In this document: piece by piece, positions 12,082 through 63,736 of the stretch
How the letters are laid out: each line of letters opens with the position of its first letter
Numbering within the stretch: position 1 is the stretch's first letter
From: an uncultured Serinicoccus sp.
GTDB lineage: Bacteria > Actinomycetota > Actinomycetes > Actinomycetales > Dermatophilaceae
Assembly: GCF_947500995.1 (NCBI RefSeq)
Contig: NZ_CANMUA010000003.1
Coordinates: forward strand, 62,001 to 126,000
Length of the DNA stretch: 64,000 nucleotides
Direction: 5' to 3'
Program-made: the position numbers and the translations under genes
Notes under the pieces: model-generated
The model's database searches: none
The model's input: the letters and a program-made list of their open reading frames with translations, nothing else
Told to the model about the DNA's origin: nothing

Positions 12082-12500
12082 GAGGTATGCCGTCGCTCCC
12101 CGCGCTGCCGCACCCGCACCTCGTCGTGCTGCGCTCGGCGGCGACGCTCGTGCTGAGCGCGGTCGTGGCGCAGGCCGGGTGGGCGGCCGCCTTCATCGGG
12201 GGCGAGCCCGGCTACCGGGTGTTCCACGAGGTGGGTGCCTGGGTCACCCTCACGCTGACGGTGGCCTGCGCGGTGGTCTACCTCGTCCTGCGTGCCTCGG
12301 CCGGTCCGGTCAACGTCACCCTGGCGGTCCTGCTCGCGGCGCTGGTCGCGGTCCAGACCGGGCTGGGGTCCTCCGGCGTCGTGGCACCGCACGTCTTCCT
12401 CGGCGTGCTCATCGCGATGGTGGCCACCGCCCTGACGTCGTGGACCTACCGTCACGCGCTCCCGGAGCCGAGCGCCAGCTCGAAGCCCCGCAGCCAGTAG
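12078..12500 (+). CDS. Four-helix membrane protein after crtB
   Basis: About 140 residues with four hydrophobic helices and short loops, ending in a polar Ser/Pro-rich tail. GTG 12078 overlaps the crtB stop (GTGA), so it should be co-translated; ATG 12087 is the alternative. The family is not recognised; the helix layout recalls CtaA/COX15-like four-helix units, but no haem-ligand pattern is certain. Its last 49 bases overlap the 3' end of the P450 gene on the other strand. A role in carotenoid placement or export is only a guess. Confidence 0.6.
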   Translation: MRGMPSLPALPHPHLVVLRSAATLVLSAVVAQAGWAAAFIGGEPGYRVFHEVGAWVTLTLTVACAVVYLVLRASAGPVNVTLAVLLAALVAVQTGLGSSGVVAPHVFLGVLIAMVATALTSWTYRHALPEPSASSKPRSQ

Positions 12501-13720
12501 CCCTCGATGAGGTGGTCCCAGCCCAGCTCGGGCTCGGCGACCAGCCGCGGGTGGTGCGCGAGCAGCCGCACGAGGAGCGCGTCGGACTCCAGCAGCGCCA
12601 GGGGCTGCCCCGGGCACTTGTGCTCGCCGTCGCCGAAGGCGAGGCCGTAGCCGGCGGTGCCCCGCGGCATACCCCGGCCCGGGCACAGCTGCTGGGGGTC
12701 GGCGCCGACCGCCTCGGGGTCGGTGTTGGTGGCGCGCACGCACACGTCCACGAGGTCCCCGGGCGGGATGGTCCACGTCTGCTCGCCGTCGGTGATCTCG
12801 ACGGGCTGACGGACCCGGCGGTAGAGGTGGCCGACGACCGGCTCGAGCCGGATGATCTCCTCCAGGACGGCCAGCCGCTCGGCCTGCTCCGCCGCGAGGT
12901 AGCGCTCGCGCAGGGCGTCGTCCCCGAGCAGGTGCCAGGCCGCCATGACGATGAACTCGCGCGTCGTCACCATGCCCGCGGTGCCGTAGGTGACGCACTC
13001 GACGAGGATGCTCGTGCGGCTGTAGCCCTCGTCGAGCAGGTGGCTGATGATGTCGGTGCGGCGCCGCCGGCGGCGGGCCCGGATCGCCGGGCGCACGTCG
13101 TGCCACCACAGCCGGGCGACCGGCCACAGCCCGTTGCGGGCCGCGCGGGCCCAGTCCCGGCGGCTGCGGCCGAGGTCGTCGCGCGCGATGTCGAAGGGCG
13201 GCTGGTTGAAGAACGACACCAGCCGCCGGGACAGCCCCGGCACGTCGGACTCGGTCAGCCCGACCAGCTCGGCGGTGACCTCGACGGTGTAGTGCAGCGC
13301 GGCCTCGTCGAGCCGGCACCGGCCGCTCTCCAGGGCCTGCGCGACGGTGCGGTCGGCCACTTGGGCCATGAGGTCGCCGTAGCGCTCGGTCACGACGGCC
13401 GGGGCGAGGAAGCGCGCCACCTTGCGCCGCTGGTCGTCGTGCACCGGGCCGTCCGAGACGAGGATCGGGTGGTGCTCGAGCCGTCCCTGGGGGATGGCCT
13501 CGGCGGTGAAGCCGGCCTGGGTCGTCGCGTGCCGGGCCCGCAGCAGCTGGCGTGCGGGCTGCAGCCCGCGCAGCCGCCACACCGTGCTCACGCCGGGCCG
13601 GCCGCCCGCGTCGACGCGTTCCACCCGCGGGGTCGCCGGCTCCTCGGGGCGGCGGGCCCGCCTGGCCCCCTCGGTGCCCGTGCCCTGGTCGCCCCCACCG
13701 GGGTGCGCCGGGCAGCTCAT
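12452..13720 (-). CDS. Cytochrome P450 in carotenoid operon
   Basis: 422 residues. The haem loop FGDGEHKCPGQPLALLE contains the cysteine ligand (C369), and EEIIRLEP supplies the ExxR pair. The I-helix reads TAGMVTTREF: the acidic residue normally before the Thr-Thr pair is replaced by Val, which may alter proton delivery. ATG 13720 overlaps the crtU stop by 4 bases, so it is third in the operon methyltransferase-crtU-P450. A likely role is hydroxylating the aromatic carotenoid made by CrtU, as suggested for dihydroxy-isorenieratene producers, but substrate is not provable here. Confidence 0.85.
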   Translation of the reverse strand: MSCPAHPGGGDQGTGTEGARRARRPEEPATPRVERVDAGGRPGVSTVWRLRGLQPARQLLRARHATTQAGFTAEAIPQGRLEHHPILVSDGPVHDDQRRKVARFLAPAVVTERYGDLMAQVADRTVAQALESGRCRLDEAALHYTVEVTAELVGLTESDVPGLSRRLVSFFNQPPFDIARDDLGRSRRDWARAARNGLWPVARLWWHDVRPAIRARRRRRRTDIISHLLDEGYSRTSILVECVTYGTAGMVTTREFIVMAAWHLLGDDALRERYLAAEQAERLAVLEEIIRLEPVVGHLYRRVRQPVEITDGEQTWTIPPGDLVDVCVRATNTDPEAVGADPQQLCPGRGMPRGTAGYGLAFGDGEHKCPGQPLALLESDALLVRLLAHHPRLVAEPELGWDHLIEGYWLRGFELALGSGSA

Positions 13721-15294: not shown

Positions 15295-16055
15295 GCTGTC
15301 TCCCCCTCGAACGGGCGCCGGGCCAGGACGGTGTGCAGGATCCCGCGCTGCCACCCCCGGGGGGTGCTCCACCGCAGGTCCACCAGGCCGGCCCGACGCA
15401 GGCGGGCCTCCAGCTCGCCGGTGGAGTCGTTGTCGAGGACGCTGCGCCGCAGGTAGGCGTAGATCGCCGGGTTGCCGCGGGTCAGCGCGGCGAGCGGGGT
15501 GACGACGAGACGGCATACCGCCGACCAGGTCAGCGCCGCCCGCCGGTCGCCCTTGACGTGGTAGTCCTGCAGCGCCACCCAGCCGCCGGGGCGCACCTGG
15601 TCGACGATGGCACCGACCACCTCGTCCCGCTGCTCCGCCGGCACGTTGCGCAGGAGGTATGCCGCGAGCACCCCGTCGGCGGTCGCGTCCAGCTCGACGG
15701 TGGCCACCGTCGGCAGGTCCTGGGCGGGCGCGTGCACGAAGCTCACGCCCGGCGGCCACTCCTTGCCCCTGGCCTGCGCCAGCATCCCCGCGGACGCGTC
15801 CAGCCCGACGATGCGCGCCCGGGGACCGGCGGCCCCGACGAGGGCCGAGGTGGACAGGCCGGAGCCGCACCCGAGGTCCCACAGCACGAGGGGTCCGTCC
15901 GGCAGGGCGTCCACCAGGTCGGCGGCGGCGCCGGCCAGGGCGTCGTGGTAGCCCGGGTTGAGCCGGGTCAGCAGGTCGTAGCGGCCCGCCGCGCGGTCGA
16001 ACTCCTCGTCCAGCCGCGGTCTCGCCCTGCGCCCGGTCCTCGATACGTCAGCCAC
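15291..16055 (-). CDS. SAM-dependent methyltransferase, UbiE/MenG-like
   Basis: 254 residues, class I methyltransferase. LWDLGCGSGLSTSALV is the SAM-binding motif I, with acidic LDAS after the next strand, and the C-terminal half carries the aromatic-rich UbiE-like region. GTG 16055 is fixed by a TAGGCT box ending 7 bases upstream; it is the first gene of the operon with crtU and P450. It could methylate a hydroxyl made by the P450, or be a menaquinone-type enzyme carried with them. The operon position favours carotenoid tailoring, but the substrate is unknown. Confidence 0.75.
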   Translation of the reverse strand: MADVSRTGRRARPRLDEEFDRAAGRYDLLTRLNPGYHDALAGAAADLVDALPDGPLVLWDLGCGSGLSTSALVGAAGPRARIVGLDASAGMLAQARGKEWPPGVSFVHAPAQDLPTVATVELDATADGVLAAYLLRNVPAEQRDEVVGAIVDQVRPGGWVALQDYHVKGDRRAALTWSAVCRLVVTPLAALTRGNPAIYAYLRRSVLDNDSTGELEARLRRAGLVDLRWSTPRGWQRGILHTVLARRPFEGETA

Positions 16056-16160: not shown

Positions 16161-17108
16161 ATGACGACTCCCGTGCTCCAGGTCGACGCGCTGCGCCGCT
16201 CGTTCGGCCCCGCCACCGTGGTGGACGGGGTCAGTCTGCGCGTCGACCCCGGTGAGACGGTCGGGCTCCTGGGGCCCAACGGCGCGGGCAAGACGACGAC
16301 GATCTCGATGATCGCGGGGCTGCTGCGGCCGGACGACGGGTCGGTGCGCATCCAGGGGGTGGACATGGCGAAGGACCCCCTGGCCGCCAAGCGTCACCTG
16401 GGCCTCGTCCCCCAGGACCTCGCGATCTACCCCGAGCTCTCGGCACGGAGCAACCTGTTCTTCTTCGGGCGGCTGCAGGGGATGCGGGGGACCGCGCTGC
16501 GGCGACGGGTCGCCGAGGTGCTCGACGTCGTCGGCCTCACCGACCGCGCCACGGGGGCCAGCAAGACCTTCTCGGGCGGGATGAAGCGCCGGCTCAACAT
16601 CGCGATCGGTCTCCTGCACGAGCCGCGGCTGCTCATCCTCGACGAGCCGACCGTCGGCGTCGACCCGCAGTCGCGCAACGCCATCCTGGAGTCCGTCGAG
16701 GCGCTGTCGGGGGAGGGGATGGCGGTGCTCTACACCACCCACTACATGGAGGAGGCGGAGCGGCTCTGCGACCGCATCGGCATCATGGACGCCGGGCGGG
16801 TGATCGCGGAGGGCACGAGGGACGAGCTGGTCGAGATCACCGGGGGCGCCGACACCGTGACCCTGGTGGGTGAGGGGCCGCTGGACGAGGTCGAGGTGGC
16901 GGTGGCCGGCATACCGGCCGTGCGCGAGGTGCGCCGGGTCGCCGGTGAGCGGCGCCTCGTCATGATGGTGCAGGGCGCCCCGCAGGCGATCAGCGCCATC
17001 GTGGCGACCGCGACCGGCGCGGGGATGACCCTGCGCGACGTCGAGACCAGCCGGCCTGACCTCGAGTCGGTCTTCCTGCACCTCACCGGCAAGGCGCTGC
17101 GGGACTGA
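16161..17108 (+). CDS. ABC-2 transporter ATP-binding protein
   Basis: 315 residues, CcmA/DrrA type. Walker A GPNGAGKTTT, signature FSGGMKRRL and Walker B LLILDEPTVGVDPQ are all consensus, followed by a His switch (TTHYM) and a 90-residue C-terminal extension typical of drug and polysaccharide exporters. ATG 16161 follows a TAGGTT box by 7 bases. Two permease genes follow at 2-base spacing and then a 4-base overlap, so one exporter is likely: an ATPase dimer with two different permease subunits. The substrate is not indicated. Confidence 0.92.
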   Translation: MTTPVLQVDALRRSFGPATVVDGVSLRVDPGETVGLLGPNGAGKTTTISMIAGLLRPDDGSVRIQGVDMAKDPLAAKRHLGLVPQDLAIYPELSARSNLFFFGRLQGMRGTALRRRVAEVLDVVGLTDRATGASKTFSGGMKRRLNIAIGLLHEPRLLILDEPTVGVDPQSRNAILESVEALSGEGMAVLYTTHYMEEAERLCDRIGIMDAGRVIAEGTRDELVEITGGADTVTLVGEGPLDEVEVAVAGIPAVREVRRVAGERRLVMMVQGAPQAISAIVATATGAGMTLRDVETSRPDLESVFLHLTGKALRD

Positions 17109-18280: not shown

Positions 18281-19443
18281 GGACCGTGCTGGCGATCGCC
18301 TGGGTCGAGCTGCGGCGCTTCCTCGCCGACCGGTCCAACCTCTTCTTCGTGCTCATCCTGCCGTTGGCCATGGTGGCCGTCATCGGCTGGCAGTTCGGCA
18401 GCGACCGGTCCGGCGCGCCGGTCTCGGTGCAGGGGCCGGGCGGCGCGGCGACGCAGGCCCTGGTCGCGGGGTGGGAGGACGCCGACCTCGCGGTCACCGT
18501 CCGCACCACACCGGAGCTCGTGCAGGAGGACGTCTCCCGGGGCAGCGCCGAGGTCGGCGTGCTCCTCGACGCGGAGGCGGAGGCGGCCTACCGTGACGGC
18601 ATACCGATGGAGCTGGAGATCATCAGCGGGTCCTCGTCCGAGGCCCCGGCGGTGGCGCAGGTGGTCCGCGCCCAGGCGGAGGCGGTTGCCACGGAGGCGG
18701 CGCAGGTCGGCCTGCTGGAGACCTTCGGCGACGAGGCCGAGGCGCGGGCCGCGCTCGACGACGCCTCGACCCTCGTGCCCCCGGCGCAGCTGCTCGTGCA
18801 GCAGCCCGAGGACCCGGTGGCCGTGGCCTTCGAGGGGGTCGAGCAGTTCGACACCGGAGCCGTCGCCCAGCTGCTGCTCTTCGTCTTCCTCAGTACCCTC
18901 AACGCCGCGCCGGCCCTCATCAAGGCCCGGCGGGACGGCGTGGTCCGGCGCACCATGGCCGCCCCGGTGACGACCACCCAGGCGATGGCCGGGCTGACGG
19001 CCGGGCGGGTCGTCATCGCCCTGGTCCAGGGGGCCTACATCATGCTGGCCTCCAGCCTGCTCTTCGGGGTGCGGTGGGGCTCGCTCGGGGTGGCCCTCCT
19101 GGTGCTGCTCGTCTTCGGGCTCGTCGCCGCGGGGGTCGCGATGGTCATCGGGGTCCTGGTCGACAGCGAGGGTGCCGCCAGCGGCCTGGCCGTGGGTGGT
19201 GGGCTGGTGCTCGGTGCCGTCGGCGGCTCGATGGTGCCGCTCGAGTTCTACTCCGACACCCTGCGCCAGGTCGCCCAGCTCACCCCGCACGCCTGGGCCA
19301 ACGACGCCATGGCGGAGGTCCAGCGGCAGGGGGCGGGGATCGCCGACGTGCTGCCCCAGCTCGGCGTGCTCGCCGCGATGGCCGTCGGCGTGCTCGTCCT
19401 CGGCTCGCTGCTGCTGCGGCGCAGCCTCGCCCGGGCGATGTAG
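18277..19443 (+). CDS. ABC-2 type permease, second subunit
   Basis: 388 residues with the same layout as the preceding gene: N-terminal helix (LFFVLILPLAMVAVIGW), large outer domain, and C-terminal helices with INAAP-like core (LNAAPALIKARRDGVVRRTMAAPV). It is probably a paralogue that pairs with it as a heterodimer. GTG 18277 overlaps the previous stop. A hairpin at 19443-19474 follows immediately and could end this operon and the converging ABC exporter operon. Confidence 0.85.
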   Translation: MRTVLAIAWVELRRFLADRSNLFFVLILPLAMVAVIGWQFGSDRSGAPVSVQGPGGAATQALVAGWEDADLAVTVRTTPELVQEDVSRGSAEVGVLLDAEAEAAYRDGIPMELEIISGSSSEAPAVAQVVRAQAEAVATEAAQVGLLETFGDEAEARAALDDASTLVPPAQLLVQQPEDPVAVAFEGVEQFDTGAVAQLLLFVFLSTLNAAPALIKARRDGVVRRTMAAPVTTTQAMAGLTAGRVVIALVQGAYIMLASSLLFGVRWGSLGVALLVLLVFGLVAAGVAMVIGVLVDSEGAASGLAVGGGLVLGAVGGSMVPLEFYSDTLRQVAQLTPHAWANDAMAEVQRQGAGIADVLPQLGVLAAMAVGVLVLGSLLLRRSLARAM

Positions 19444-21473: not shown

Positions 21474-23221
21474 GCCGCCACCTCCCCGTGCTGCTGCGAC
21501 CGGACGATCTCGGCATACGTCGGGCAGGTCTCGATGAGCTCGGTATGCCGTCCCGTGCCGACCACGCGACCCTCGTCGAGGACGACGATCTGGTCGGCGT
21601 CGGCGATGGTGGAGACGCGCTGCGCGACGACGAGGACCGTGGCGTCGCGGGTGATCGGGCGCAGGGCGGCGCGCAGCCGCGCGTCGGTGGCCAGGTCGAG
21701 GGCCGAGAAGGAGTCGTCGAAGAGGTAGACCGACGGCCGCGCGACGAGCGCCCGCGCGATGCACAGGCGCTGGCGCTGGCCCCCGGAGACGTTGCTGCCG
21801 CCCTGGGCGACCGGGTGGTCCAGCCCCTCCGGGAAGGCGCGGACGAAGTCGTCGGCCTGCGCGACCCGCAGCGCCTCCCACAGCTGCTCGTCGGTGGCGT
21901 CGGGGTCCCCGAAGCGCAGGTTGGTCGCGACGGTGCCGGAGAAGAGGTAGGGCCGTTGCGGCACCAGGCCGACCCGCGACCAGAGCTGCTCCGGGGCGAG
22001 GTCGCGCACGTCGACGCCGTCCACGAGCACCGCGCCGCCGCTGACGTCCGCCAGCCGGGGCAGGAGCCGGACCAGGGTGGTCTTGCCCGAACCGGTCGCC
22101 CCGACGACGGCCGTCGTCGTGCCCGGGCGGGCGAGGAGGTCGATGTCGCGCAGGACGGGGTGCTCGGCCCCCGGGTAGGTGAAGGAGACACCCCGCAGCT
22201 CGACCAGGCCGCGGGCGTCCGGCCGCGGGTCCTGCGGCTGCGTGGGCGCGACGACGCTCGTGCCGGTGCCGAGCACCGCGCCGATCCGTTCGGCCGAGAC
22301 GGTGGCGCGCGGGATCATCGTCGCGACCATCGTCGCCATCATGATCGACATGAGGATCTGGATGAGGTAGCTGATGTAGGCGGTGAGCGCGCCGACCTCC
22401 ATCGCCCCGGAGGACACGCGCTGGGCGCCGAACCAGATGACGCCGACGCTCGAGAGGTTCATGACGAGCATGACGAAGGGGAACATCAGCGCCATGAGGT
22501 CGCCGAGCCGGAGCCCGATGCCGGTGAGCTCGTCGTTGGTCCGCGCGAAGCGCTCCCGCTCCTGCGGCTCGCGGGTGAAGGCGCGGATGACGCGGATGCC
22601 GGTGATCTGCTCGCGCATGACCCGGTTGACGGCGTCCAGCTGACGCTGGTTGGCCCGGAACAGCGGCACCATCCGCGCGATGATGAGCCCCATGCCGGCG
22701 AGCAGCACCGCGACGGCCACGGCGATGAGCGGGGAGAGGCCGACGTCCTGCCGGATCGCCATGACGACACCACCGACGGCGGTGATCGGGGCGGCGACGA
22801 GCATGACGAGCGCCATGAACGTCACCTGCTGCACCTGCTGGACGTCGTTGGTGCTGCGGGTGATGAGCGAGGGGGCGCCGAACTCGCCGAGCTCCCGGGT
22901 GGAGAAGGACAGCACCCGCTCGACCACCGCGCCGCGCACGTCTCGGCCCACCCCCATCGCCGTCCGCGCCGCTGCCCAGGTGGCCGCGATCTGGGCGGTC
23001 GCCTGGACGGCGCTCACCGCGAGCATGAGACCCCCGACCCGCCAGATGTAGGGCAGGTCGGTCTGGACGATCCCGCGGTCGATGACGTCGGCGTTGAGGC
23101 TGGGCAGGTAGAGGCTGGCCAGGGTCGCCACCAGCTGCAGGGCCAGCACCGTCACGACGAGCCCGGTGTAGGGCCGCAGGTGGCGGCGCAGCAGTCGGGT
23201 GAGCACCTCCTGATTGTGCAC
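21470..23221 (-). CDS. ABC exporter half-transporter, partner subunit
   Basis: 583 residues with six-helix exporter domain and NBD. Walker A GATGSGKTTL and signature NVSGGQRQRL are canonical; Walker B reads VYLFDDSFSALD, with Asp where the catalytic Glu should be, as in the degenerate subunit of asymmetric exporters. The frame starts at GTG 23221, which abuts GGAGG; a second GTG ten bases inside (after AGGAG) is possible. First gene of the two-gene operon, divergent from the large subtilase. Confidence 0.88.
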   Translation of the reverse strand: MHNQEVLTRLLRRHLRPYTGLVVTVLALQLVATLASLYLPSLNADVIDRGIVQTDLPYIWRVGGLMLAVSAVQATAQIAATWAAARTAMGVGRDVRGAVVERVLSFSTRELGEFGAPSLITRSTNDVQQVQQVTFMALVMLVAAPITAVGGVVMAIRQDVGLSPLIAVAVAVLLAGMGLIIARMVPLFRANQRQLDAVNRVMREQITGIRVIRAFTREPQERERFARTNDELTGIGLRLGDLMALMFPFVMLVMNLSSVGVIWFGAQRVSSGAMEVGALTAYISYLIQILMSIMMATMVATMIPRATVSAERIGAVLGTGTSVVAPTQPQDPRPDARGLVELRGVSFTYPGAEHPVLRDIDLLARPGTTTAVVGATGSGKTTLVRLLPRLADVSGGAVLVDGVDVRDLAPEQLWSRVGLVPQRPYLFSGTVATNLRFGDPDATDEQLWEALRVAQADDFVRAFPEGLDHPVAQGGSNVSGGQRQRLCIARALVARPSVYLFDDSFSALDLATDARLRAALRPITRDATVLVVAQRVSTIADADQIVVLDEGRVVGTGRHTELIETCPTYAEIVRSQQHGEVAA

Positions 23222-27270: not shown

Positions 27271-28290
27271 TCAGAGGTATGCCGCGAGCCGGGCCAGGCC
27301 GTCCGCGCCGAGGACCTCGTCCGGCAGCAGCGGCACCTGGGTCACCGGGAGGTGCGGGAGGGCGTCGGCCAGCTGCGCGACATACCCCTCCTCGAGCGCC
27401 CGGCGCGCGGCGAGCAGGTCGCCGGCGTCGGCGGGCGAGCGCTTGTTGACCACGAGCGCGCCGACCCCCATGCCGGCCCGGGTGAGCTGCTCGTGCAGCT
27501 CCACGGTCTCCAGGACGGGGAGGCGCTCGGCGGCGAGCACGATGACGAAGGCGCTGCGCGCCGGGTCCTGCAGCACCGACCGGAGCTGCGCGAAGCGGGC
27601 CTGCCGCCGGTCCAGGATCCGGCGGATCTCGGCGTCGCGTCGCGAGCGCCGGTCCGGCGCCGCGGCCTCGTCGCGGCCCCGCGAGCTGCCCAGGATGTCG
27701 GCCGCGGCCCGCTCCCCGGCGTCCGGGCGCGGCCGGCCCTGCAGCCCACGCAGGGCCGCCCCGAAGCGGGCCGAGCGGTCCTGGCGCCGCAGCAGCCCCT
27801 CGGTCCACGCCTGCATGAGCTCGGGCAGCGCGACGAGCCGGGAGGTGTGCCCGGAGGGGGCGGTGTCGAAGACGACGAGCTCGTCCGGGTGCCGGGCCTC
27901 CAGCACCTCGGCGATCCGCTCGAGCACGGCGGCCTCGTGGGTGCCCGGGGCGTCACGGGCCAGCTCGAGGTGCCGGCTCACCTCCCCCTGCAGGTGCTCG
28001 GGCATGAGGCGGTGCATGGTGTCGCGCACGGCGCGCAGGTGCTCGTCGGTGGTCCGCGCCGGGTCGATCTCCAGGCCGCGCAGCAGCGGGGCGAGCTCGA
28101 CGGTCTCGTCACCCACGGCCCGCCCCCACAGGTGGCCGAGGTTGTGCGCCGGGTCGGTCGAGACGACGAGCACCCGACGCCCCCCGCGGGCGAGGGCGAG
28201 GCCCAGCGCGGAGGCGACGGCGGTCTTGCCGACCCCGCCCTTGCCGCCGACGAAGAGGACCTCGCGCCCGTCGGCCAGCCCGCTCAGCAC
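27271..28290 (-). CDS. ArsA/GET3-like ATPase
   Basis: 339 residues, SIMIBI-class NTPase. A deviant P-loop GGKGGVGKT (residues 15-23) with STDPAHNLG and FDTAPSGHT switch motifs marks the ArsA/Get3 family. No ArsB arsenite permease or ArsR regulator is nearby, so arsenic export is not implied. It follows a tiny CC-ending protein and a CstA transporter on the same strand. GTG 28290 begins just before the first strand; the frame upstream of it lies in the CC-protein gene. A role in handling or inserting a small or tail-anchored partner is a guess. Confidence 0.82.
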
Positions 28291-30321: not shown

Positions 30322-30468
30322 GGCGGTCTCCGTTGACGGCGCGGCACCTGGCGCCCTCAATCTACCCGACGCTCACGCCTCGTGCGTCACTTCCGTCCCG
30401 CCCGTCACGAGGCGGGGTCGTCGCCCGTCCTGCGGGTATGCCCGACGCGAGGCGCGCGGCGTCGCACC

Positions 30469-36006: not shown

Positions 36007-36259
36007 TCGCCAGGCACGCAACCCTCCCGATGACCTGTGGCGGGCGCGCAGGGGGGTGTGCCCACCACCAGTCACATTGCTCTCGTGCCTGATCGACCCG
36101 ACGGCGCCGAGACGCGACGCCTGGTCGATGTCTCCACGCTAACGGCGCGTCGGCAAAGGGCGGGTATGCCGCGGGTAAGGACTTGGTCAAGTCTGTGACG
36201 GGTGGGGTGGGGCGCCGGTGGCCGCGACGGGCCCGCCCGGGTGCGCCAGACTGCACGGT
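36007..36259. promoter_or_regulatory. Region upstream of DNA ligase
   Basis: No ORF is supported here. A palindrome GACTTG-GT-CAAGTC (36180-36193) lies 67 bases before the ligase ATG and may be a regulator site. A copy of the dispersed octamer GGTATGCC is at 36163-36170. Confidence 0.35.
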
Positions 36260-43251: not shown

Positions 43252-43309
43252 CGGCATACCGCGGCCGGGGTCCGCGTCGACCTGTGGGCGATGGGGCAGG
43301 ATCGTCGGG

Positions 43310-50604: not shown

Positions 50605-52439
50605 GTGACCAGGCCTTTCGCACCGGACCGGACGGCGTGCGCTACCGCGACCTCAACCACAACGGCGTCATGGACCCCTTCGAGGACCCGCGCCTGCCGG
50701 ACGCCGAGCGCGTCGACGACCTCCTCGGCCGGCTGACCCTGGACGAGAAGATCGGGCTGCTGTTCCACACGGTCATCGAGACCGGCCCGGGCGGCAGCGT
50801 GCTCGACGGGCCGGGGGCGATCAGCAAGACCGGCACCCGCCACGTCGTCGTCGACAAGCGCGTCAACCACTTCAACGTCCACCAGCTCGGCCCGGCCCAC
50901 GAGGCGGCCCGCTGGCACAACGCGGTCCAGCGCCTGGCGCAGGAGACGCCGCACGGCATACCGGTCACCATCTCGACCGACCCCCGGCACGGCTTCAGCG
51001 AGAACGCCGGCGCGAGCTTCTCCGCGGGCTCGTTCTCCCAGTGGCCCGAGCCGCTGGGGATCGCCGCGCTGCGCGACGTGCAGGTGTGCCGGGAGTATGC
51101 CGAGGCCGTCCGCTCCGAGTACGTCGCGGTCGGCATCCGGGCGGCGCTCCACCCCACCCTCGACCTCGCCACAGAGCCCCGGTGGGCGCGGCAGCTCCAC
51201 ACCTTCGGGCAGGACCCGCAGGTGGTGACCGAGCTGGGCCTGGCCTTCCTCGAGGGCCTGCAGCGCGGCGAGCTCGGGCCGGGCAGCGTGGCCTGCACGG
51301 CCAAGCACTTCCCCGGCGGCGGGCCGCAGGCCGACGGGGAGGACGCGCACTTCCCCTACGGCCGGGAGCAGGTCTACGGCGGCGGGCACTTCGCCGACCA
51401 CCTGGCGCCGTTCCTACCGGCGATCGAGGCCGGGGTGGCCGCGATGATGCCCTACTACGGCATGCCCGTGGGGCTGGAGCTGGACGGCGAGGCCGTGCCG
51501 GAGGTGGGCTTCGGCTTCAACCGGCGCATCGTCACCGGCCTCCTGCGCGACGAGCTCGGCTACGACGGGGTCGTCCTCACCGACTGGGAGCTCGTCAACG
51601 ACAACCACGTCGGCGACCAGGTGCTGCCCGCCCGCGCCTGGGGCGTCGAGCACCTCGACGCGGCGGGCCGGATGGAGCTGCTGCTGGAGGCCGGCTGCGA
51701 CCAGTTCGGCGGCGAGGAGTGCGTGGAGGTGCTGGCCGGCCTCGTGGCCGACGGCCGGGTGAGCGAGGAGCGCCTCGACGTCTCGGCCCGACGGCTGCTC
51801 ATGGTCAAGATGCAGCTCGGCCTGTTCGACGACCCCTTCGTCGACGAGGCGCTCGCCGACGAGCGGGTCGGGACGCCCGGGACGGTCGAGGCCGGCCTGG
51901 CCGCCCAGGCCGCCTCGGTCACCGTGCTGGCCGACGACGGGGGGCTGCTGCCGTTGTCGGGGTCCGACCGCGCGGTCTACGTCGAGGGCATCTCGGCACA
52001 GGACGCCGCCGCGCTCGGCCGGGTGGTGGAGCGTCCCGAGGACGCCGACCTGGCGGTGATCCGGCTGGCCGCCCCGCACGAGCCGCGCTCCGACCTCTTC
52101 CTCGAGGCGTGGTTCCACCAGGGGTCGCTGGAGTTCCCCCCGGGGCTGCCGGTGCGGCTGCGCCGGATCCGCGAGCACTGCCCGGTCGTCGTCGACGTGA
52201 CCCTGGACCGGCCCGCGGTCCTCGGCCCGGTCATGGACGCGGTCGACGCCGTCGTGGGCAGCTACGGCAGCGGCGGGCCCGCGCTGGTCCGCGCCCTGCG
52301 GGGCGAGGCCCGTGGCCGGCTGCCCTTCGACCTGCCGCGCTCGATGGAGCAGGTGCGCACCCACCACCCCGACCAGCCGGGGCTGGGCGACCCGCTGCTG
52401 CCCTGCGGGCACGGCATACCTCTCGGCGCGCGGGTCTGA
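50601..52439 (+). CDS. Glycoside hydrolase family 3 beta-glucosidase
   Basis: 612 residues. The N-terminal (YRDLNHNGVMDPFEDP...RVDDLLGRLTLDEKIGLL) and the barrel motifs AKHFPGGG and YDGVVLTDWELVND (nucleophile D328) are typical of GH3. The C-terminal alpha/beta domain is short and the Fn3 domain of many GH3 enzymes is missing. No signal peptide, so it likely cleaves imported oligosaccharides in the cytoplasm. ATG 50601 overlaps the previous stop. It ends the glycan-use operon. Confidence 0.88.
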   Translation: MSDQAFRTGPDGVRYRDLNHNGVMDPFEDPRLPDAERVDDLLGRLTLDEKIGLLFHTVIETGPGGSVLDGPGAISKTGTRHVVVDKRVNHFNVHQLGPAHEAARWHNAVQRLAQETPHGIPVTISTDPRHGFSENAGASFSAGSFSQWPEPLGIAALRDVQVCREYAEAVRSEYVAVGIRAALHPTLDLATEPRWARQLHTFGQDPQVVTELGLAFLEGLQRGELGPGSVACTAKHFPGGGPQADGEDAHFPYGREQVYGGGHFADHLAPFLPAIEAGVAAMMPYYGMPVGLELDGEAVPEVGFGFNRRIVTGLLRDELGYDGVVLTDWELVNDNHVGDQVLPARAWGVEHLDAAGRMELLLEAGCDQFGGEECVEVLAGLVADGRVSEERLDVSARRLLMVKMQLGLFDDPFVDEALADERVGTPGTVEAGLAAQAASVTVLADDGGLLPLSGSDRAVYVEGISAQDAAALGRVVERPEDADLAVIRLAAPHEPRSDLFLEAWFHQGSLEFPPGLPVRLRRIREHCPVVVDVTLDRPAVLGPVMDAVDAVVGSYGSGGPALVRALRGEARGRLPFDLPRSMEQVRTHHPDQPGLGDPLLPCGHGIPLGARV

Positions 52440-54663: not shown

Positions 54664-55905
54664 ATGCACGTCGTGGTCGTCGCCCACGCCCGGCACCCGT
54701 TGGCCGAGCCCTTCGCCGGGGGCCTGGAGTCACTGACGGCCCACCTCATCTCGGGGCTCGCCACGCGGGGGCACCGGGTCAGCGTCTTCGCGGCTCGCGG
54801 CAGCCAGGAGGTCCCCGGGGTGGACTACCTGTGGCCGGAGCGCCTGGAGCTCAGCGCCGCGGCCCAGGGTGACGTCTCCATGCCGGAGGCGGGGTGGATG
54901 CAGCAGCACCACGCCCACCTCAGCCTCATGATGCACCTGGCGCAGCGCACGGACGTCGACATCGTGCACACCCACGCCCTGCACTACCTCCCGGTGGCGA
55001 TGGCACCCCTGCTGCCCGCACCGACGGTGCTCTCCCTGCACACCCCGCCGACGCCCTGGCTGGAGTCCGCGCTGCGGGCCGCCCAGGGCATACCGGGTCG
55101 TCAGCCGGTCGTGACGGCCGTCAGCAGGCACACCGCCCGGGCCTGGTCGGACCTGGTCCGGCCCCAGCTCGTGCCGAACGGCATCGACACCCGGGAGTGG
55201 CGCGCCGGTCCCGGCGGACCGGCCCTCGTCTGGTCCGGGCGCATCACCCCCGAGAAGGCGCCGCACCTGGCCGTCGCCATCGCCCGGCGCGCCGGCCTGC
55301 CGCTCGTGCTGGCCGGCCCGTTGTCCGACGAGACCTACGCGCGCGAGGTGCTGTGGCCGCTCCTCGGCGAGGGCATCACGTATGCCGGTCACCTGCGCAC
55401 CTCCGAGCTCGCCTCGCTCGTGGGCCGCAGCGCGGCCGCGCTCGTCACGCCTGTCTGGGACGAGCCCTTCGGTCTGGTGGCCGCCGAGGCCCTGGCCTGC
55501 GGCACCCCGGTGCTCGCGCTCGACCGGGGCGGGCTCGGCGAGGTCGTGGGCGAGCACGTCGGCCGGCTCGTCCCGGTGCAGGACCGGGCCGGACGCCCGC
55601 TCCCGGAGGCGGAGCTGGTGCGCAGCGGCGCCGAGCTGCTGGGCGAGGTGCTGCAGCTCTCCCGCCCGCTGGCCCGCGCCCACGCCCTGGAGCACCACTC
55701 GGTGGACGCCATGGTCGACCGTTTCGAGCGGGTCTACGAGTCCACGGCGCGGCTGGGCCGCCGCTCCCTGCGTCAGCCCCGGGGCGCCGGCAGGGCCGCG
55801 CAGCGGGCGGGCCGCCGGGAGCGGGCCGTCCTCGAGCGCACCACGCACCCCCGGACCGTGGGGTCGCTGGCCCTCTCCGAGGCCGAGGCAGAGCCCGGCC
55901 GGTGA
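54664..55905 (+). CDS. Glycosyltransferase, GT4 (GT-B fold)
   Basis: 413 residues. N-lobe start VVVVAHARHPLAEPFAGGLESLTAHL with HTHALHYLP; C-lobe LVWSGRITPEKAPHLAV, then DEPFGLVAAEALACGTPVLALDRGGLGEVV, the E-x7-E site of GT4 retaining enzymes. The C-terminal 50 residues are basic and probably disordered. GGAGG precedes ATG 54664. First of six genes that overlap by 4 bases each, so expression is tightly coupled. Acceptor and sugar donor unknown. Confidence 0.9.
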   Translation: MHVVVVAHARHPLAEPFAGGLESLTAHLISGLATRGHRVSVFAARGSQEVPGVDYLWPERLELSAAAQGDVSMPEAGWMQQHHAHLSLMMHLAQRTDVDIVHTHALHYLPVAMAPLLPAPTVLSLHTPPTPWLESALRAAQGIPGRQPVVTAVSRHTARAWSDLVRPQLVPNGIDTREWRAGPGGPALVWSGRITPEKAPHLAVAIARRAGLPLVLAGPLSDETYAREVLWPLLGEGITYAGHLRTSELASLVGRSAAALVTPVWDEPFGLVAAEALACGTPVLALDRGGLGEVVGEHVGRLVPVQDRAGRPLPEAELVRSGAELLGEVLQLSRPLARAHALEHHSVDAMVDRFERVYESTARLGRRSLRQPRGAGRAAQRAGRRERAVLERTTHPRTVGSLALSEAEAEPGR

Positions 55906-57047
55906 TCGGCTACTACCTGCACCACCAGGGGTCGGGCCACCGGCGCCGCGCCACCGCCGTGGCCCGCCGCACCCGGCACGACGTCGTCGGGCTCGGCAGC
56001 GGTCCGCCTCCGGAGGGCTGGCCGGGTCGCTGGGTCGAGCTGGAGCGCGACGACGACCCGGTCGTGGACCACGAGGCGGCGGACGTCACCGCCCGCGGGG
56101 TCCTGCACTGGGTGCCGCTGCACCACCAGGGCCTGCTGCGCCGCCACGCGCAGCTCGTGTCCTGGCTGCAGCAGGCCCGCCCCGAGCTGCTCGTCGTCGA
56201 CGTGTCGGTCGAGGTCAGCCTGCTGGCCCGGCTGTGCGGGGTGCCCGTGGTGGTGGGGGGTATGCCGGGCCGGCGCGCCGACGCCGTGCACGCGCTGGCC
56301 TACGACGTGGCGGAGGCCATCCTCGCGCCCTGGCCCGCCGGCGCCCACCCCCGGGAGGACTGGCCCGCACGGTGGCGCCTCAAGACCTGGGAGGTCGGGG
56401 GGATCAGCGCGCTCGCCGATGCGGTGTCGTCGTCCCCCGGCACCCCCGGGCCCGCGGCGGTCGGCCCGGCCCTGGCCCGTGAGACGGGCGGGACCGAGGG
56501 GACCGACGGGACCGGTCGGCAGGTGCTGGTGCTCTGGGGCCACGGAGGGGAGCCCCTGAGCCCCGCGCAGCTGCAGGAGGCGCGGTCCGCGACCCCCGGG
56601 TGGACCTGGGTGGTCCGTGGTGGGGGGCACCCGTCGTCGCCGGACCTGCCGGCCGAGCTGTGCCGGGCGGACGTCGTGGTGTGCCACGCGGGCCAGGGTG
56701 CGGTGGCCGACGTCGCGCTGGCCCGCCGCCCGGCGGTGGCGCTGGCTCAGCCGCGGCCCTTCGACGAGCAGGTGGCGACGGCCGAAGCCCTCTCCCGGCT
56801 CGGGATCGCCGCGACCGCCGAGGGGTGGCCCGCCGGCGCGCGCTGGCCCGGGCTGCTGTCGCGCGCCCTCGAGCTCGGCGGGCAGGGATGGTCGCGGTGG
56901 GGGCAGGACGGTGCGGGCACCGCCGCCGGCCACCTGGACGCCCTGGCCGACTCGCTGGTGCGGCCGGTCGGCGGCGATGCCGAGGGGGACGTGCCCCGCA
57001 CCCCGACGGGTCCGGCGGTCCGCGAGGGCGTGGAGCGGGGCGCATGA
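55902..57047 (+). CDS. GT28-like glycosyltransferase
   Basis: 381 residues with a GT-B layout. The N-terminus IGYYLHHQGSGHRRRATAVA resembles the MurG/GT28 glycine-rich start and the C-lobe ADVVVCHAGQGAVADVALARRPAVALAQPRPFDEQ resembles its nucleotide-sugar site. A Gly/Thr-rich linker (ETGGTEGTDGTG) separates the lobes. GTG 55902 overlaps the GT4 stop. Likely adds one sugar of the same glycan as its neighbours. Confidence 0.75.
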   Translation: MIGYYLHHQGSGHRRRATAVARRTRHDVVGLGSGPPPEGWPGRWVELERDDDPVVDHEAADVTARGVLHWVPLHHQGLLRRHAQLVSWLQQARPELLVVDVSVEVSLLARLCGVPVVVGGMPGRRADAVHALAYDVAEAILAPWPAGAHPREDWPARWRLKTWEVGGISALADAVSSSPGTPGPAAVGPALARETGGTEGTDGTGRQVLVLWGHGGEPLSPAQLQEARSATPGWTWVVRGGGHPSSPDLPAELCRADVVVCHAGQGAVADVALARRPAVALAQPRPFDEQVATAEALSRLGIAATAEGWPAGARWPGLLSRALELGGQGWSRWGQDGAGTAAGHLDALADSLVRPVGGDAEGDVPRTPTGPAVREGVERGA

Positions 57048-59073: not shown

Positions 59074-59981
59074 GCGAGGACGGACGGCGTCGCCACTACG
59101 GCGGCTTCTACGGGCTGGCGGAGCTGCCCGCCACGGGTCGACCGCGGCTGGCGGTCTTCGGCAACTGCCAGGCCGAGGCGCTGCGGGTCGCCCTCGACAC
59201 CGCCGGCGTCCTCGACACGGTGCGGATGCCGCCGGTGCACGAGCTCGAGGAGGCGGACCTGCCCCACCTCGACCGCCTGCTGACCTGGGTCGACGTCCTC
59301 GTCGCCCAGGCGGTGGCCGACGACTACCGGGGTATGCCGCTCGGCACCGACCAGGTCGCGGCGCGGCTGCGGACGGGGGCGCGCGTGGTCGCTGCGCCCA
59401 ACTACTTCTTCACGGGGCTCTACCCCGAGCAGGTGCTGGTGCGCCACCCGGACGTCGAGGACCCGCCCGTCGTGCCCTACCACGACGTGCGGCGGCTGGC
59501 GCGTGCCGCGGGCTGGGACGGTCCGTGGGAGGCGCCGGCCGCGCTCGTGCGCGAACTCGCCGCCGACTCGCTGGCCGAGCTCGAGCGGCGGGAGCGGGCC
59601 CAGGAGAGCCTGCGCATCAGCGACGTCGTGCGTGCCGCGGGGGCCGAGGCCGGCCGCACGGTCGACCACCCCGGCAACGAGGTGCTGCTGGCGCTGGCCC
59701 GACGGGTGCTGGAGGAGGTCGAGCCCGGGTCCGGAATCGCCGTCCAGGACCCGGGCCGTGTCCTGCTCGCGTCCGTGTCCACCCCGCTGTCGCGCGGTGT
59801 CCTCGAGGCGCTGGACCTGCGGGGGGACCCTCGCGAGGGGTGGCTGGTCGAGGGCGAGGCGGTCTCCGACGACGAGGTGGGGGCGGCGCACCGGGAGTTC
59901 TACGCCCGCCACCCGCGGGTCGTCGAGGTGGGGATCGAGAAGAGGGAGGACCTGCTGCGGCGGTGGGGCTGGCGCCCGTGA
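59070..59981 (+). CDS. WcbI-like polysaccharide biosynthesis protein
   Basis: 303 residues. RLAVFGNCQAEALRVAL, with the G-N-C-Q motif, is the signature of the WcbI family, putative capsule acyl/acetyltransferases with a SGNH-like fold. APNYFFTGLYPEQ and a C-terminal domain of helices follow. It would decorate the glycan with an acyl group. GTG 59070 overlaps the previous stop and its own stop overlaps the next start (GTGA). Confidence 0.7.
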   Translation: MSEDGRRRHYGGFYGLAELPATGRPRLAVFGNCQAEALRVALDTAGVLDTVRMPPVHELEEADLPHLDRLLTWVDVLVAQAVADDYRGMPLGTDQVAARLRTGARVVAAPNYFFTGLYPEQVLVRHPDVEDPPVVPYHDVRRLARAAGWDGPWEAPAALVRELAADSLAELERRERAQESLRISDVVRAAGAEAGRTVDHPGNEVLLALARRVLEEVEPGSGIAVQDPGRVLLASVSTPLSRGVLEALDLRGDPREGWLVEGEAVSDDEVGAAHREFYARHPRVVEVGIEKREDLLRRWGWRP

Positions 59982-62314
59982 CCCCGCCGTTGGTCCACCT
60001 CGTGCCCGGGCCCGAGGGGCACGGTGTCGTGCGGCACGGTCTCGGCGTGCACCCGCACCTGGGGGAGGCCGAGCTCCTGCGGTGCGGCCGGCTCGACGAG
60101 CTCGCCGACGGTGCCGTCGCCGGGCGGGTGGTGCTCGCCCAGGTGACCGACCGGCTGCTGGCCTCCGCGCCGGGGCAGGGGCTGGAGGAGTGGCGCCGGG
60201 TGCTGCGGGGGGCGGCCCGGGTGACGGTGGTGCTCCACGACCTGCCGCAGCGCTCGGACGGGCGCCACCGGCACGCGCGCAGCGAGCTCTACGCGGGCGT
60301 GGCCGCCTCCGCGGACACCGTCGTCGTGGCGAGCGGGCACGAGCGGCTGCTGCTCGCGGCGGCGTTGCGCTGGGCCCGCCCCGACGTCGCCGCCGCCGTG
60401 CTCGGCCGCACCCTGGTGGTCCCGCTGCCGGTCGAGCCCGACCCCGGCGCCGTCCCCCGACCCTCGTCGGCGGACACGCCGGCACCGCCCCTCACCGTCG
60501 TGACGCTCGGGTTCGTCTATCCGGGCAAGGGGCTCGAGGAGGTGGTGGACGCCGCGGCGCTGGCGGCCCGGGACCCCCGGCTGCAGGACCGCGCGGTGGA
60601 GGTCCTCAACCTCGGGGGTGCGTCGCAGGGCCACGAGGACCTGCTGGAGGAACTGGCCGTGCGGGCCAGGGACGCGGGGGTGCGCTGGCACGCCACCGGC
60701 TACGTGCCCGACGAGGCGCTGCCTGGTCTGCTCGCCGCGGCGACGGTGCCCGTCGCGGCGCACCGGCACGTCTCCGCGTCCGGCTCCGTCGCCACCTGGC
60801 TCGCGGCGGGACGACGGCCGCTGCTGCTCGACTCGCGGTATGCCCGCGAGCTCGCCGACCGGCTGCCCGGGACCGTGCAGACGGTCCCCGGGGACCGGCT
60901 GGCCCCGGCGCTCGCCGACGCGCTGGTCGAGGTGTCCTCGCCGGACGGCACGGACCCGACCTGGCTGCCCCACGACGTCCGCCTCGGGCCCGGCTGGGAG
61001 GAGGCGGGGCAGCGGGTCGCCGGCCCGGCCCGCGAGGCGGCGGTCTCCGTCGTGGTGCCCTACTACCGCGACCAGGAGCTGCTCGACCTGCTCGTCGGAC
61101 GCCTGGCGGCCCAGACCGGGGTCCGGGGCGGCCTGGAGCTGGTGGTCGCGGACGACGGTTCGCCCCGGCCGCCCACCCTGCCCGCCGCCCCGCACGGGGC
61201 GCTCGGGCGGATCCGGGTGCTCCGGCAGCCCGACGAGGGCTTCCGGCTCGCGGCGGCCCGCAACCTCGGCCTGGGGGCGACGACGGGTCGCGTGCTGGTC
61301 CTGCTCGACGGGGACACCGTGCCCGAGGACGGCTACGTCGCCGCCCTGCAACGGGTCTGCCTCGACCGGCCCACCCTCGCGGTCGGACGCCGGCGCCACG
61401 CCGACCTGCGCGGTCACGCCGACCTGCCCGGGGAGGCGCGCTGGCCACCGTCCGAGGAGCTGCTGGCCCCCGCCTGGCTGGCCGAGGGGTATGCCCGGAC
61501 GCAGGACCTGCAGGCCGCTGACGACACGTCGTTCCGCTTCGTCATCGGCGCGGTGCTGGGGGTGTCCCGTGCGGTGCTGGACGTCGTCGACGGGTTCGAG
61601 GCGCGTCTCACCGGCTACGGCGGGGAGGACTGGGAGTTCGCGTGGCGGTGCTGGCTGGCGGGGGCGGACCTGCGGCACGTGCCCGACGCCGTGGCCTGGC
61701 ACGACGGCCCGGACGTCGCGGGCCGCGCGGACGCCGCGGGCACCGGGCTCTCGGCGGTCAAGAACGCCGAGACCGCTCGACTGGCCCACCTCCTGCCCCA
61801 CCCCCTGGTGCGGGGCCGCGGCTGGTCCTACCCCCAGCCGGACGTCGTCGTGGACCTCGACGTCCGGGGCTGGACCCACGGCCAGGTCGTGCTCGCGGTC
61901 GAGTCGGTGCTGCGCCAGGGTGACGTGGGGGTCTGGCTGACCGGGACGGACGCCGCGTCGGGGCCGGGGGCGACGGACCCGCGCGACGGCCTGCCGCCGG
62001 ACCCCCGCGTCCACCGGGGTCGGCCACCGGCCGAGGTCCTCGCCCGGGCCCGGGTCGAGCTGAGGCTGACCCGGCCGGTCTGGGTGCACCGGCTGCCCTG
62101 GCAGCCGTGGCCGGACCAGGTGGACGTCCCCGACCCGTCCCGCGGCGCGTGGACGGAGGACCCGGCGAGCGGCGTGCAGGCCCGGGTCACCCGCGCCACC
62201 GGCCTGACCCGGCTGCAGGGCGGGCGGCCGGGGCCCTGCTGGCTGGGCACCGACGCGGTGGAGACGGTCCCGCCGGACGTCGTGGTCGAGCACTGGCGGG
62301 CCGCGCACCCCTGA
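59978..62314 (+). CDS. Two-domain glycosyltransferase (GT4-like + GT2)
   Basis: 778 residues, a fusion. Residues 1-340 are GT-B-like (VTLGFVYPGKGLEEVVDAA; TGYVPDEALPGLLAAATVPVAAHRHVSASGSVATWLAAGRRPLL). Residues about 350-620 are GT2 (VSVVVPYYRDQELLDLLVGRLAAQTG, LVVADDGSP, LLDGDTVPEDGY as DxD-like site, GYGGEDWEFAWRCW as ED motif). The last 150 residues are unassigned. Last gene of the operon. It could add two successive sugars; whether both sites work is unknown. Confidence 0.82.
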   Translation: MTPPLVHLVPGPEGHGVVRHGLGVHPHLGEAELLRCGRLDELADGAVAGRVVLAQVTDRLLASAPGQGLEEWRRVLRGAARVTVVLHDLPQRSDGRHRHARSELYAGVAASADTVVVASGHERLLLAAALRWARPDVAAAVLGRTLVVPLPVEPDPGAVPRPSSADTPAPPLTVVTLGFVYPGKGLEEVVDAAALAARDPRLQDRAVEVLNLGGASQGHEDLLEELAVRARDAGVRWHATGYVPDEALPGLLAAATVPVAAHRHVSASGSVATWLAAGRRPLLLDSRYARELADRLPGTVQTVPGDRLAPALADALVEVSSPDGTDPTWLPHDVRLGPGWEEAGQRVAGPAREAAVSVVVPYYRDQELLDLLVGRLAAQTGVRGGLELVVADDGSPRPPTLPAAPHGALGRIRVLRQPDEGFRLAAARNLGLGATTGRVLVLLDGDTVPEDGYVAALQRVCLDRPTLAVGRRRHADLRGHADLPGEARWPPSEELLAPAWLAEGYARTQDLQAADDTSFRFVIGAVLGVSRAVLDVVDGFEARLTGYGGEDWEFAWRCWLAGADLRHVPDAVAWHDGPDVAGRADAAGTGLSAVKNAETARLAHLLPHPLVRGRGWSYPQPDVVVDLDVRGWTHGQVVLAVESVLRQGDVGVWLTGTDAASGPGATDPRDGLPPDPRVHRGRPPAEVLARARVELRLTRPVWVHRLPWQPWPDQVDVPDPSRGAWTEDPASGVQARVTRATGLTRLQGGRPGPCWLGTDAVETVPPDVVVEHWRAAHP

Positions 62315-62356
62315 CCGCTCGCGTGGCCGTGGGCTGCGGGCCCTCGCGGACGCCGG

Positions 62357-63736
62357 TCAGCCGGGGGTCGGGCGGTCCGCCTCCAGCTGGTGCATGACCC
62401 GCAGCACGCCGAGGTCGTCGAAGGGGCGGCCGACGACCTGGACACCCACCGGCTTCCCCTCGGCGGTCCGGGCGGTGTCGACCGTCCCGGCAGGCTGGCC
62501 GGTCATGTTCCACGGCATGGTGAAGTTGATGTGCCACATGCCGCGTCCGTCGTCGGGGTAGGGCATGGGCTGCTCCGCGGGGAAGGCCACCCCGGGGGCG
62601 ACCGGCGACAGGAGCACGTCCGGGTCACCGGCCGCGGCCCACGCGGCGACCGTGCGGGCCTGCACCTCGGCGAAGCAGTGGTAGGCGTCCATGACCTCGG
62701 TGCCGGTGAGGTCACGCGCCCCGGCGACCCACTCGGCGATGAAGGGCAGCACCCGGCCCTGCGCCTGCGGGTCCAGCCGGGAGAAGTCCGCCCAGGACCG
62801 CGCCTGCCAGAAGAGGTTGACCCCGTCCAGCAGGTCCTGGGTCAGCCACGGCCCGACCCTGCTCACCTGCGCACCCGCGGCGGCCAACCGCCCGGCGGCG
62901 CCCTCCACCGCGGCGACGACCTCGGGATCGGGCTCCACGCCATACCCCGCCTGCGTCCACACCGCGACGCGCAGCCCGGCGACGTCGACGTCGAGGTCCT
63001 CCCACGGCGTCCGTCGCTCCGGGAGCGAGGTCCAGTCGACCGGGTCCGGGCCGGCCAGCACCGACATGAGCAGGGCGCAGTCCCGGGCCGTGCGCGCCAT
63101 GGGCCCGGCGACCCGACCCAGGTAGGGCGCGTGCAGCGGGATCCGACCCGCGCTGGGCTTGAGGGTCGCCAGCCCCAGCCAGGTGCCGGGCAGCCGGATG
63201 GAGCCGCCGATGTCGGTGCCGACGTGCAGCGGGCCGTAGCCGCCGGCCGCCGCGGCGCCCGCGCCGGAGCTGGACCCGCCGGTCGTCCACGTCGGGTCCA
63301 GCGGTGAGCGGGTGATGCCGTGCCGGCTGGACACGCCGGAGGAGAGCATCCCCCAGTCCGGCATGACGGTGGAGCCGAGGACGACGAGCCCCGCCTCGCG
63401 GCAGCGGCGGGCGACCGGGGAGTCGGTCTCCGGGACGACCGGCGTGACGCCCGCGCAGCCCATGGTCATCGGCACGCCCGCGCGGGCGAGGTTCTCCTTG
63501 AGCGTGACCGGTATGCCGTCCAGCGGGCCGAGGGGACGGCCCTGCTCCCAGCGGCGTGCCGACGCCGCCGCCTGCTCCGAGACGGCATCGGCGTCGTCGC
63601 GGACGGCGAACGCGTTGAGCTGGTCCTCCCGCTCGTCGACGACCTGCTGCACCCGCGCGACGACGTCGGCAGGGGACAGCGAGCCGTCGGCGTACCCGGC
63701 GGCCAGGTCCGCCGCCGTGCGGGAGGGGTCGGTCAT
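62357..63736 (-). CDS. Amidase, amidase-signature family
   Basis: 459 residues. The Ser-cisSer-Lys triad region is intact: GIPVTLKENLARAG (Lys), TTGGSSSGAGAAAAGG (cis-Ser loop) and GTDIGGSIRLPG (nucleophile Ser). Such enzymes hydrolyse amides broadly; GatA is unlikely because no gatB/C is near and the C-terminal region differs. ATG 63736 lies 7 bases after minus-strand TACCGT. Monocistronic, converging on the glycan operon with a 42-base gap. Confidence 0.9.
   Translation of the reverse strand: MTDPSRTAADLAAGYADGSLSPADVVARVQQVVDEREDQLNAFAVRDDADAVSEQAAASARRWEQGRPLGPLDGIPVTLKENLARAGVPMTMGCAGVTPVVPETDSPVARRCREAGLVVLGSTVMPDWGMLSSGVSSRHGITRSPLDPTWTTGGSSSGAGAAAAGGYGPLHVGTDIGGSIRLPGTWLGLATLKPSAGRIPLHAPYLGRVAGPMARTARDCALLMSVLAGPDPVDWTSLPERRTPWEDLDVDVAGLRVAVWTQAGYGVEPDPEVVAAVEGAAGRLAAAGAQVSRVGPWLTQDLLDGVNLFWQARSWADFSRLDPQAQGRVLPFIAEWVAGARDLTGTEVMDAYHCFAEVQARTVAAWAAAGDPDVLLSPVAPGVAFPAEQPMPYPDDGRGMWHINFTMPWNMTGQPAGTVDTARTAEGKPVGVQVVGRPFDDLGVLRVMHQLEADRPTPG

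Follow-up and report, generated by a model that had tools for sequence, protein, structure and literature searches.

The stretch of DNA analysed here, 64,000 nucleotides of contig NZ_CANMUA010000003.1 from an uncultured Serinicoccus sp. (positions 62,001 to 126,000; hereafter the window), is strewn with copies of a single octamer, GGCATACC, and this raises the question of what multiplies and maintains a short, non-palindromic word in a chromosome of an actinobacterial family with 70-73% GC. From the comparisons described below and the likeness to systems known in other bacteria, we conclude that GGCATACC probably serves naturally transformable actinobacteria as a DNA uptake sequence.

Abundance and synonymous conservation of the octamer

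An exact recount yielded 28 copies of GGCATACC/GGTATGCC in the window, 13 on the plus and 15 on the minus strand, the first at 12084 and the last at 63510. This agrees with a first-pass annotation of the same letters, which had judged the word to be far above chance against about two expected copies; order-2 and order-3 Markov models place the expectation at ~1.3. The core GCATAC occurs 42 times, one more than had been counted by hand, and 38 of these cores take the form GGCATAC, as estimated then. Positions 1-12,083 are indeed free of GGCATACC (p=0.003 at even density), and still hold two GGCATAC heptamers, at 1984 (+) and 11928 (-). Across the whole genome (G000; 3,805,170 bases) there are 1415 copies, or 1 per 2.7 kb, as compared with 8 of the reversed word.

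As a control for codon usage, we ran 100 rounds in which the synonymous codons of each gene were shuffled, over 464 kb made up of 400 kb of contig C1 together with the window, and obtained a mean of 13.4 genic copies (standard deviation 3.2, maximum 22) against 166 observed. The excess is 12-fold relative to these shuffles and 19-fold relative to the Markov expectation; gene calls, shuffles and the orthologues used below all depend on the same simple purpose-written gene caller. A further 36 of the 209 copies in this set are intergenic; DNA of this kind makes up 42.7 kb (9% of the total) and carries them at ~2x the genic density. The proposal that the word merely reflects composition, through the preference of a high-GC genome for certain codons or dipeptides, is already refuted by the shuffles, by the intergenic share of copies and by the rarity of the reversed word, even if such preferences may lie behind the diffuse excess of GTAC words seen in G090, G084, G014, Kribbella and Nocardioides. 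Within genes the octamer forces the use of rare codons, as the first-pass annotation had argued: 32 of the 45 ATA codons and 50 of the 162 TAT codons in called genes fall inside a copy, and the five sites that it had read as GGC-ATA-CC (16908..16915, 18598..18605, 50955..50962, 52413..52420 and 55087..55094, all on the plus strand) are all in frame 0 of called genes. The signal in the flanks consists of C at -1 (168/209 copies) and A or C at -2 (A in 95/209), with farther positions weak, giving the consensus (A)CGGCATACC, or ACGGCATACC.

Conservation was assessed by comparing G000 with 10 congeners around leuS-comEA-comEC, using 40 kb of each genome and 19-30 reciprocal best hits per genome; the congeners share ancestry, so that the site-genome pairs counted are not independent. 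The octamer is kept in 76 of 108 aligned pairs overall and in 73 of the 85 in which the amino acids are unchanged, where other octamers of the same genes, taken more than 8 bases from any motif, are identical in 36-70%. The codons concerned are retained more often inside the motif than outside it: GCA in 9/9 against 47/191, CAT in 6/7 against 7/74, TAT in 15/17 against 30/94 and GGT in 26/36 against 274/970. ATA is retained in 27/35 cases within the motif and occurs a single time outside it. No excess of retention was found for CCG (32/45 against 0.72) or CCC (10/19 against 0.57), which lie partly outside the octamer. Both checks that had been proposed with the first-pass annotation, a codon-preserving null (run on 464 kb, not genome-wide) and conservation at synonymous sites, thus left its claim of a non-random word intact.

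Distribution and dialects across the family

Counts of GGCATACC in 186 genomes of the family range from 6 to 2228. Defining as rich those with at least 200 copies and at least 3x the reversed control, 109 of the 186 genomes and 32 of the 53 genera qualify; the 31 genomes of genus g1, which contains G000, were classified by eye and the remaining 155 by computation. All but one of the g1 genomes (30/31) are rich, the exception being G114 with 38 copies. Outside the family, none of 271 genomes exceeds 136 copies (in an order-wide sample of 297, of which 26 belong to the family). Low counts in single species of otherwise motif-rich genera are found in G114, G008 and G084, the last of which has no excess of GGCATACC while its congeners G085 and G086 do. 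We read these three as natural losses, which would be useful for locating the gene that reads the word. The ComEC match of G114 spans profile positions 1-150 only, which in a draft of ~230 contigs need not mean a broken gene.

Several related genera carry other words in its place. We scanned 60-100 kb stretches of relatives for words over-represented against Markov and codon-shuffle nulls (for G022 with longest open reading frames in place of the gene caller) and recounted the sharp ones genome-wide. CCCCTTCG is iterated in every genome of g27 (16/16; 1198-2588 copies) and of g36 (3/3; 2589-3180 copies), and none of the remaining 167 genomes has more than 396. CGGCATCC has 3816-3838 copies in the two genomes of g9, 2099-4480 in the four of g15 and 3949 in the one of g51, and at most 1336 elsewhere, this maximum and a count of 1210 coming from two genomes of g46, G153 among them. 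CCGCATCG is present 2007 times in G083 and at most 1110 times elsewhere, and CGGCATACG, a variant of the GGCATACC core, is common in further genomes (e.g., 3218 copies in G100) and is extended to AGCGGCATACG in G041. Two g15 genomes hold both GGCATACC (523 and 508 copies) and CGGCATCC (2195 and 2099). Genus g27 is probably Janibacter, because the J. indicus locus L122 carries CGAAGGGG 6 times in 12 kb. In our reading, which is not a reconstruction, the words can be ordered through few changes as CGGCATACC, CGGCATCCG, CCGCATCGG, CCCCATCG and CCCCTTCG, where CCCCATCG is a minor word of G083. The scanned stretches of G153, G038, G184, G022, G021, G001, G068, G096 and G011 yielded no sharp word.

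Mapped onto a 43-row tree of ComEC proteins, the dialect labels require 9 changes as compared with 13.8 when shuffled, and 0/200 shuffles were as low. Genus g15 adjoins g46 in this tree, and the CGGCATCC rows of g15 and g9 do not cluster. The dialects therefore appear to follow phylogeny, as judged from a single gene tree with weak deep branches.

Several other repeated words emerged from the same scans. The GTAC words CGGCGTAC and CGCCGTAC were considered as dialects of G090, G084, G014, G002 and G015 and were not counted, their excess being diffuse and common to Kribbella and Nocardioides; the Kribbella loci L128 and L132 and the Nocardioides loci L165 and L170 show a diffuse excess of CGNCGTAC-like words that lacks the sharpness of the dialect words. 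In 80 kb each of G090 (L078-L081) and G014 (L086-L089), CTACTCGACC and GGTCTCGATA reach ~24 to 250x their Markov expectation and are perhaps interspersed repeats resembling repetitive extragenic palindromes (REP-like). In 100 kb of G084 (L038-L042), the palindrome GAAGATCTTC has 10 copies against 0.3 expected.

Orientation of copies and the uptake interpretation

Copies that lie close together are mostly inverted. Among pairs 6-45 bp apart in eight genomes, 24 are in opposite and 2 in the same orientation. Fourteen of the 24 inverted pairs are intergenic, including both of those in G000, all 3 in G052 and both in G041, and 13 of these 14 are centred within 75 bp past a stop codon, against 4.6 expected at random intergenic places. 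The ten genic pairs come mostly from G083, G103 and G093, and in G117 and G103 0/3 inverted pairs are intergenic. With computed folding energies of -28 to -51 kcal/mol, the intergenic pairs are predicted to form terminator-like hairpins after stop codons, much as reported for inverted pairs of the DNA uptake sequences (DUS) of Neisseriaceae (PMC3630211) and of the uptake signal sequences (USS) of Pasteurellaceae (PMC7811141).

Taken over whole stretches, the two orientations are balanced, as the first-pass annotation had held for the window: 82 plus and 99 minus copies in 400 kb of G000 give no local strand bias (p 0.23), nor do single stretches of six further genomes (p 0.50-1.0). Spacing with both strands combined lies at the edge of the random range in the 400 kb (coefficient of variation 0.868; random 95% range 0.867-1.155), and its regularity becomes clear only when copies are split by orientation. 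Under 1 kb, G000 has 17 same-orientation pairs where 47.9 are expected, and 54 opposite pairs where 48 are expected. We permuted orientations 5000 times over fixed positions in G000, G117, G178, G052, G093, G041, G103 and G083; over these eight genomes together, pairs in the same orientation number 154 below 1 kb where 213.7 are expected (standard deviation 10.5; z -5.7), or 152 against 198 (standard deviation 10) once pairs under 60 bp are removed, and are not depleted at 1-2 kb (250 against 249). In a pool of seven genomes, the same-orientation ratio lies at 0.56-0.68 for distances below 1 kb and at 0.97-1.06 for longer ones. The exclusion is strong in G000 and G117, for which 0/5000 permutations were as low and which alone stay clearly significant with the closest pairs removed. 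Pairs inside genes show it (70 same, 105 opposite), as do pairs across genes (82 same, 143 opposite), and only 1/391 octamers of like abundance in G000 is equally depleted at 250-1500 bp. This suggests that each copy may serve one strand, in one direction, over ~1 kb, as would follow if the motif determined which strand is imported or in which direction. To our knowledge the exclusion is new, in that it is not a trait described for USS or DUS in the literature consulted.

Genes for DNA uptake are widespread in these bacteria. In G000, leuS, degV, comEA and comEC are consecutive, and there are 11 TadE matches and a dprA. ComEC matches are found in 180/186 family genomes, the six without one being 58-95% complete drafts, TadE in 181/186 and DprA in 40/40 of those examined, and a comEA-type SLBB/HhH match is present in 76/80 named loci, several of which are short contigs. 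Loss of competence genes was accordingly rejected as the cause of motif-poor genomes, these genes being near-universal in the family.

Such machinery would allow the following course of events. The motif in free DNA would be bound by a receptor on the cell surface, probably a component of the Tad/Flp pilus or one of its partners; ComEA and ComEC would bring in one strand, and DprA and RecA would recombine it into the chromosome. With motif-bearing pieces entering best, biased uptake and recombination would multiply the copies, frequently in intergenic DNA or at synonymous sites, until each strand had one copy per few kb (~5 kb in G000, ~2 kb in the richest genomes). A shift in receptor specificity might then lead to the slow rewriting of a genome into a new dialect, of which GGCATACC, CGGCATACG, CGGCATCC, CCGCATCG and CCCCTTCG would be instances. 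Molecular drive of this kind, by uptake and recombination, would account for replacement of a word throughout a genome, which is hard to explain for an intracellular binding site.

We favour an uptake system because copy number, asymmetry of the word, lack of local strand bias, hairpins, codon cost and dialects all match descriptions of USS and DUS, and the resemblance to such sequences that had been proposed for the window gains support from the dialects, the synonymous conservation, the hairpin pairs, the lack of local strand bias and the competence genes. The DUS of Neisseriaceae (Frye et al. 2013, PMC3630211) is likewise short, non-palindromic and repeated roughly a thousand times or more, with dialects that follow phylogeny and inverted pairs that form terminator-like hairpins, and it occurs in genes and more densely between them, the latter as in G000; unlike DUS, the present words belong to Actinobacteria in which no ComP is known, and show same-orientation exclusion within 1 kb. 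The USS of Pasteurellaceae (PMC1626085, PMC7811141) shares an iterated core of ~9 bp, clade-specific types, no orientation bias and close inverted pairs, and PMC1626085 further describes a density near one per kb and mild regularity, the even spacing having been treated by Karlin et al. (as quoted in PMC1939737); here, however, there are no AT-rich flanking segments, and the flanks add A/C at -2,-1 only. Micrococcus luteus, which transforms with Flp/Tad pili, has ComEA/ComEC together with Tad machinery as found here, and, unlike here, no uptake sequence is reported in the parts of that study consulted (PMC6370729). By titles and abstract openings, the open-access literature searched reports no uptake sequence in actinobacteria, and among the matches listed for the octamer string none is, by title, on a genomic motif. 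The main text of a survey of spaced motifs in prokaryote genomes (PMC5217627) mentions neither Actinobacteria nor Janibacter, Intrasporangium or Kytococcus.

Several observations weigh against the uptake interpretation. Uptake sequences in the literature consulted are confined to Pasteurellaceae and Neisseriaceae, and one-strand exclusion is not among the traits known for USS, since orientation was without effect on uptake by H. influenzae (PMC1939737). Where amino acids have changed, the octamer is kept in only 3/23 pairs and lost in 20/23, and in G113, G124 and G135, the congeners with the lowest protein identity to G000, 8/15 unchanged-peptide sites are kept. Over the whole draft of G000, forward copies number 663 and reverse copies 752 (p 0.02), in contigs of arbitrary orientation. 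The exclusion is weaker in G178 (p 0.006) and G052 (p 0.03), not significant in G093 (0.06), G041 (0.07) and G103 (0.16), and absent in G083 (0.53). Competence genes are equally present in genomes in which no sharp motif was found, for example G021, G038, G184 and G022; the presence of comEA, comEC, tadE and dprA does not track the motif, and no candidate receptor is found among these genes.

The chief mechanistic rival is a Chi-like site, on meeting which from one side a nuclease acting at a double-strand break would halt degradation. The Chi sites of RecBCD/AddAB are also over-represented octamers that may be read directionally, and they differ between lineages; moreover, directional sites needed on both strands would yield the one-strand exclusion seen under 1 kb. 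Chi is biased to the leading strand, however, while local stretches of seven genomes have no such bias, and the 12- and 19-fold excess exceeds that known for Chi. RecC is absent from 14 of 40 genomes, of which seven are motif-rich (G083, G178, G139, G077, G039, G172 and G094), and present in six that are poor in GGCATACC and have no known sharp word (G114, G084, G038, G184, G021 and G014), AddAB/AdnAB not having been searched for. We therefore consider a Chi-like role quite unlikely. A site for chromosome organisation or self-marking, recognised intracellularly by a DNA-binding protein or methylase peculiar to the lineage, is unlikely as well, even though the slightly even spacing, the motif-free mobile island described below and the synonymous-site conservation would all suit it. 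For a static site one-strand exclusion is unexpected, and without a drive that copies the word, a new one would need >1000 single-site changes between related genera; restriction targets, furthermore, are usually avoided, whereas GGCATACC is strongly enriched. The methylation target and architecture site that the first-pass annotation had named as alternatives accordingly keep a small share of our belief, and explain fewer of the features.

A bias of mutation or repair that turns neighbouring words into the motif, with no function attached, would account for its presence both in and between genes and for lineage-specific words, and such a bias has reportedly been proposed for HIP1 or for very-short-patch repair. 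Two neighbours are indeed missing, AGCATACC (0 against 9.1 expected, an expectation inflated by the motif itself) and GGTATACC (0 against 3.5). Most one-mismatch neighbours are, however, somewhat enriched rather than depleted (GGCACACC 45 against 26, GGCAGACC 45 against 30), and a bias of this kind predicts neither one-strand exclusion nor hairpin pairs past stop codons, which makes it very unlikely in our estimation. HIP1 of cyanobacteria is itself a highly iterated octamer of unsettled function and a palindrome; GGCATACC, unlike HIP1, is not self-complementary and occurs in dialects, and its palindromic neighbours are either missing (GGTATACC) or near expectation (GGCATGCC, 24 against 20). 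Overall, an uptake sequence fits better than RecBCD-Chi, restriction sites or conversion bias.

If GGCATACC is an uptake sequence, it would represent a third independent case of self-specific uptake, in high-GC Gram-positives beside the two Gram-negative families of the literature consulted, and with several dialects in a single family, comparison could be used to test how uptake words arise and are replaced. Natural transformation would then be indicated as one of the main ways in which these bacteria exchange genes, adding the right word would be a practical handle for transforming them, and the one-strand exclusion would be a first genomic clue to the orientation of uptake. A more specific version, on which we remain a shade to the doubtful side, is that of a directional Gram-positive uptake system in which a copy governs the import or protection of one strand over ~1 kb, the strands are tiled independently, the dialects serve as barriers to mating between genera of actinobacteria, and the system has been lost in G114, G008 and G084.

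Copies and neighbouring features in the window

Besides the five in-frame sites given above, the exact matches on the plus strand are at 12666..12673, 15512..15519, 30595..30602, 35569..35576, 39992..39999, 43253..43260, 43323..43330 and 43890..43897. Those on the minus strand are at 12084..12091, 15656..15663, 21542..21549, 27276..27283, 30435..30442, 36163..36170, 37683..37690, 40383..40390, 45411..45418, 48066..48073, 56259..56266, 59331..59338, 60837..60844, 61488..61495 and 63510..63517. The copies at 43253 and 36163 are intergenic by the gene calls. Inverted pairs are formed by 15512 with 15656 (144 bp) and by 30595 with 30435 (160 bp); apart from those at 43253 and 43323, no two copies of the same orientation in the window lie less than 200 bp apart.

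The octamer-free part includes a mobile island (2865..6690) with two tyrosine recombinases and a transposase that we read as IS3-type from its rve/HTH_21 domains and an ALIL element. The match to the ALIL frameshift pseudoknot, at 5671-5820, overlaps the start of this transposase. Tandem repeats with a period-15 unit, GGCTCAGTCCTGGCG, occupy 52930-53140, and the tRNA-Asp that ARAGORN places at 53053-53144, within these repeats, is probably a false call. A 32-bp tandem repeat of 3.3 copies, at 37789-37895, directly follows the gene for an ATP-dependent DNA ligase.

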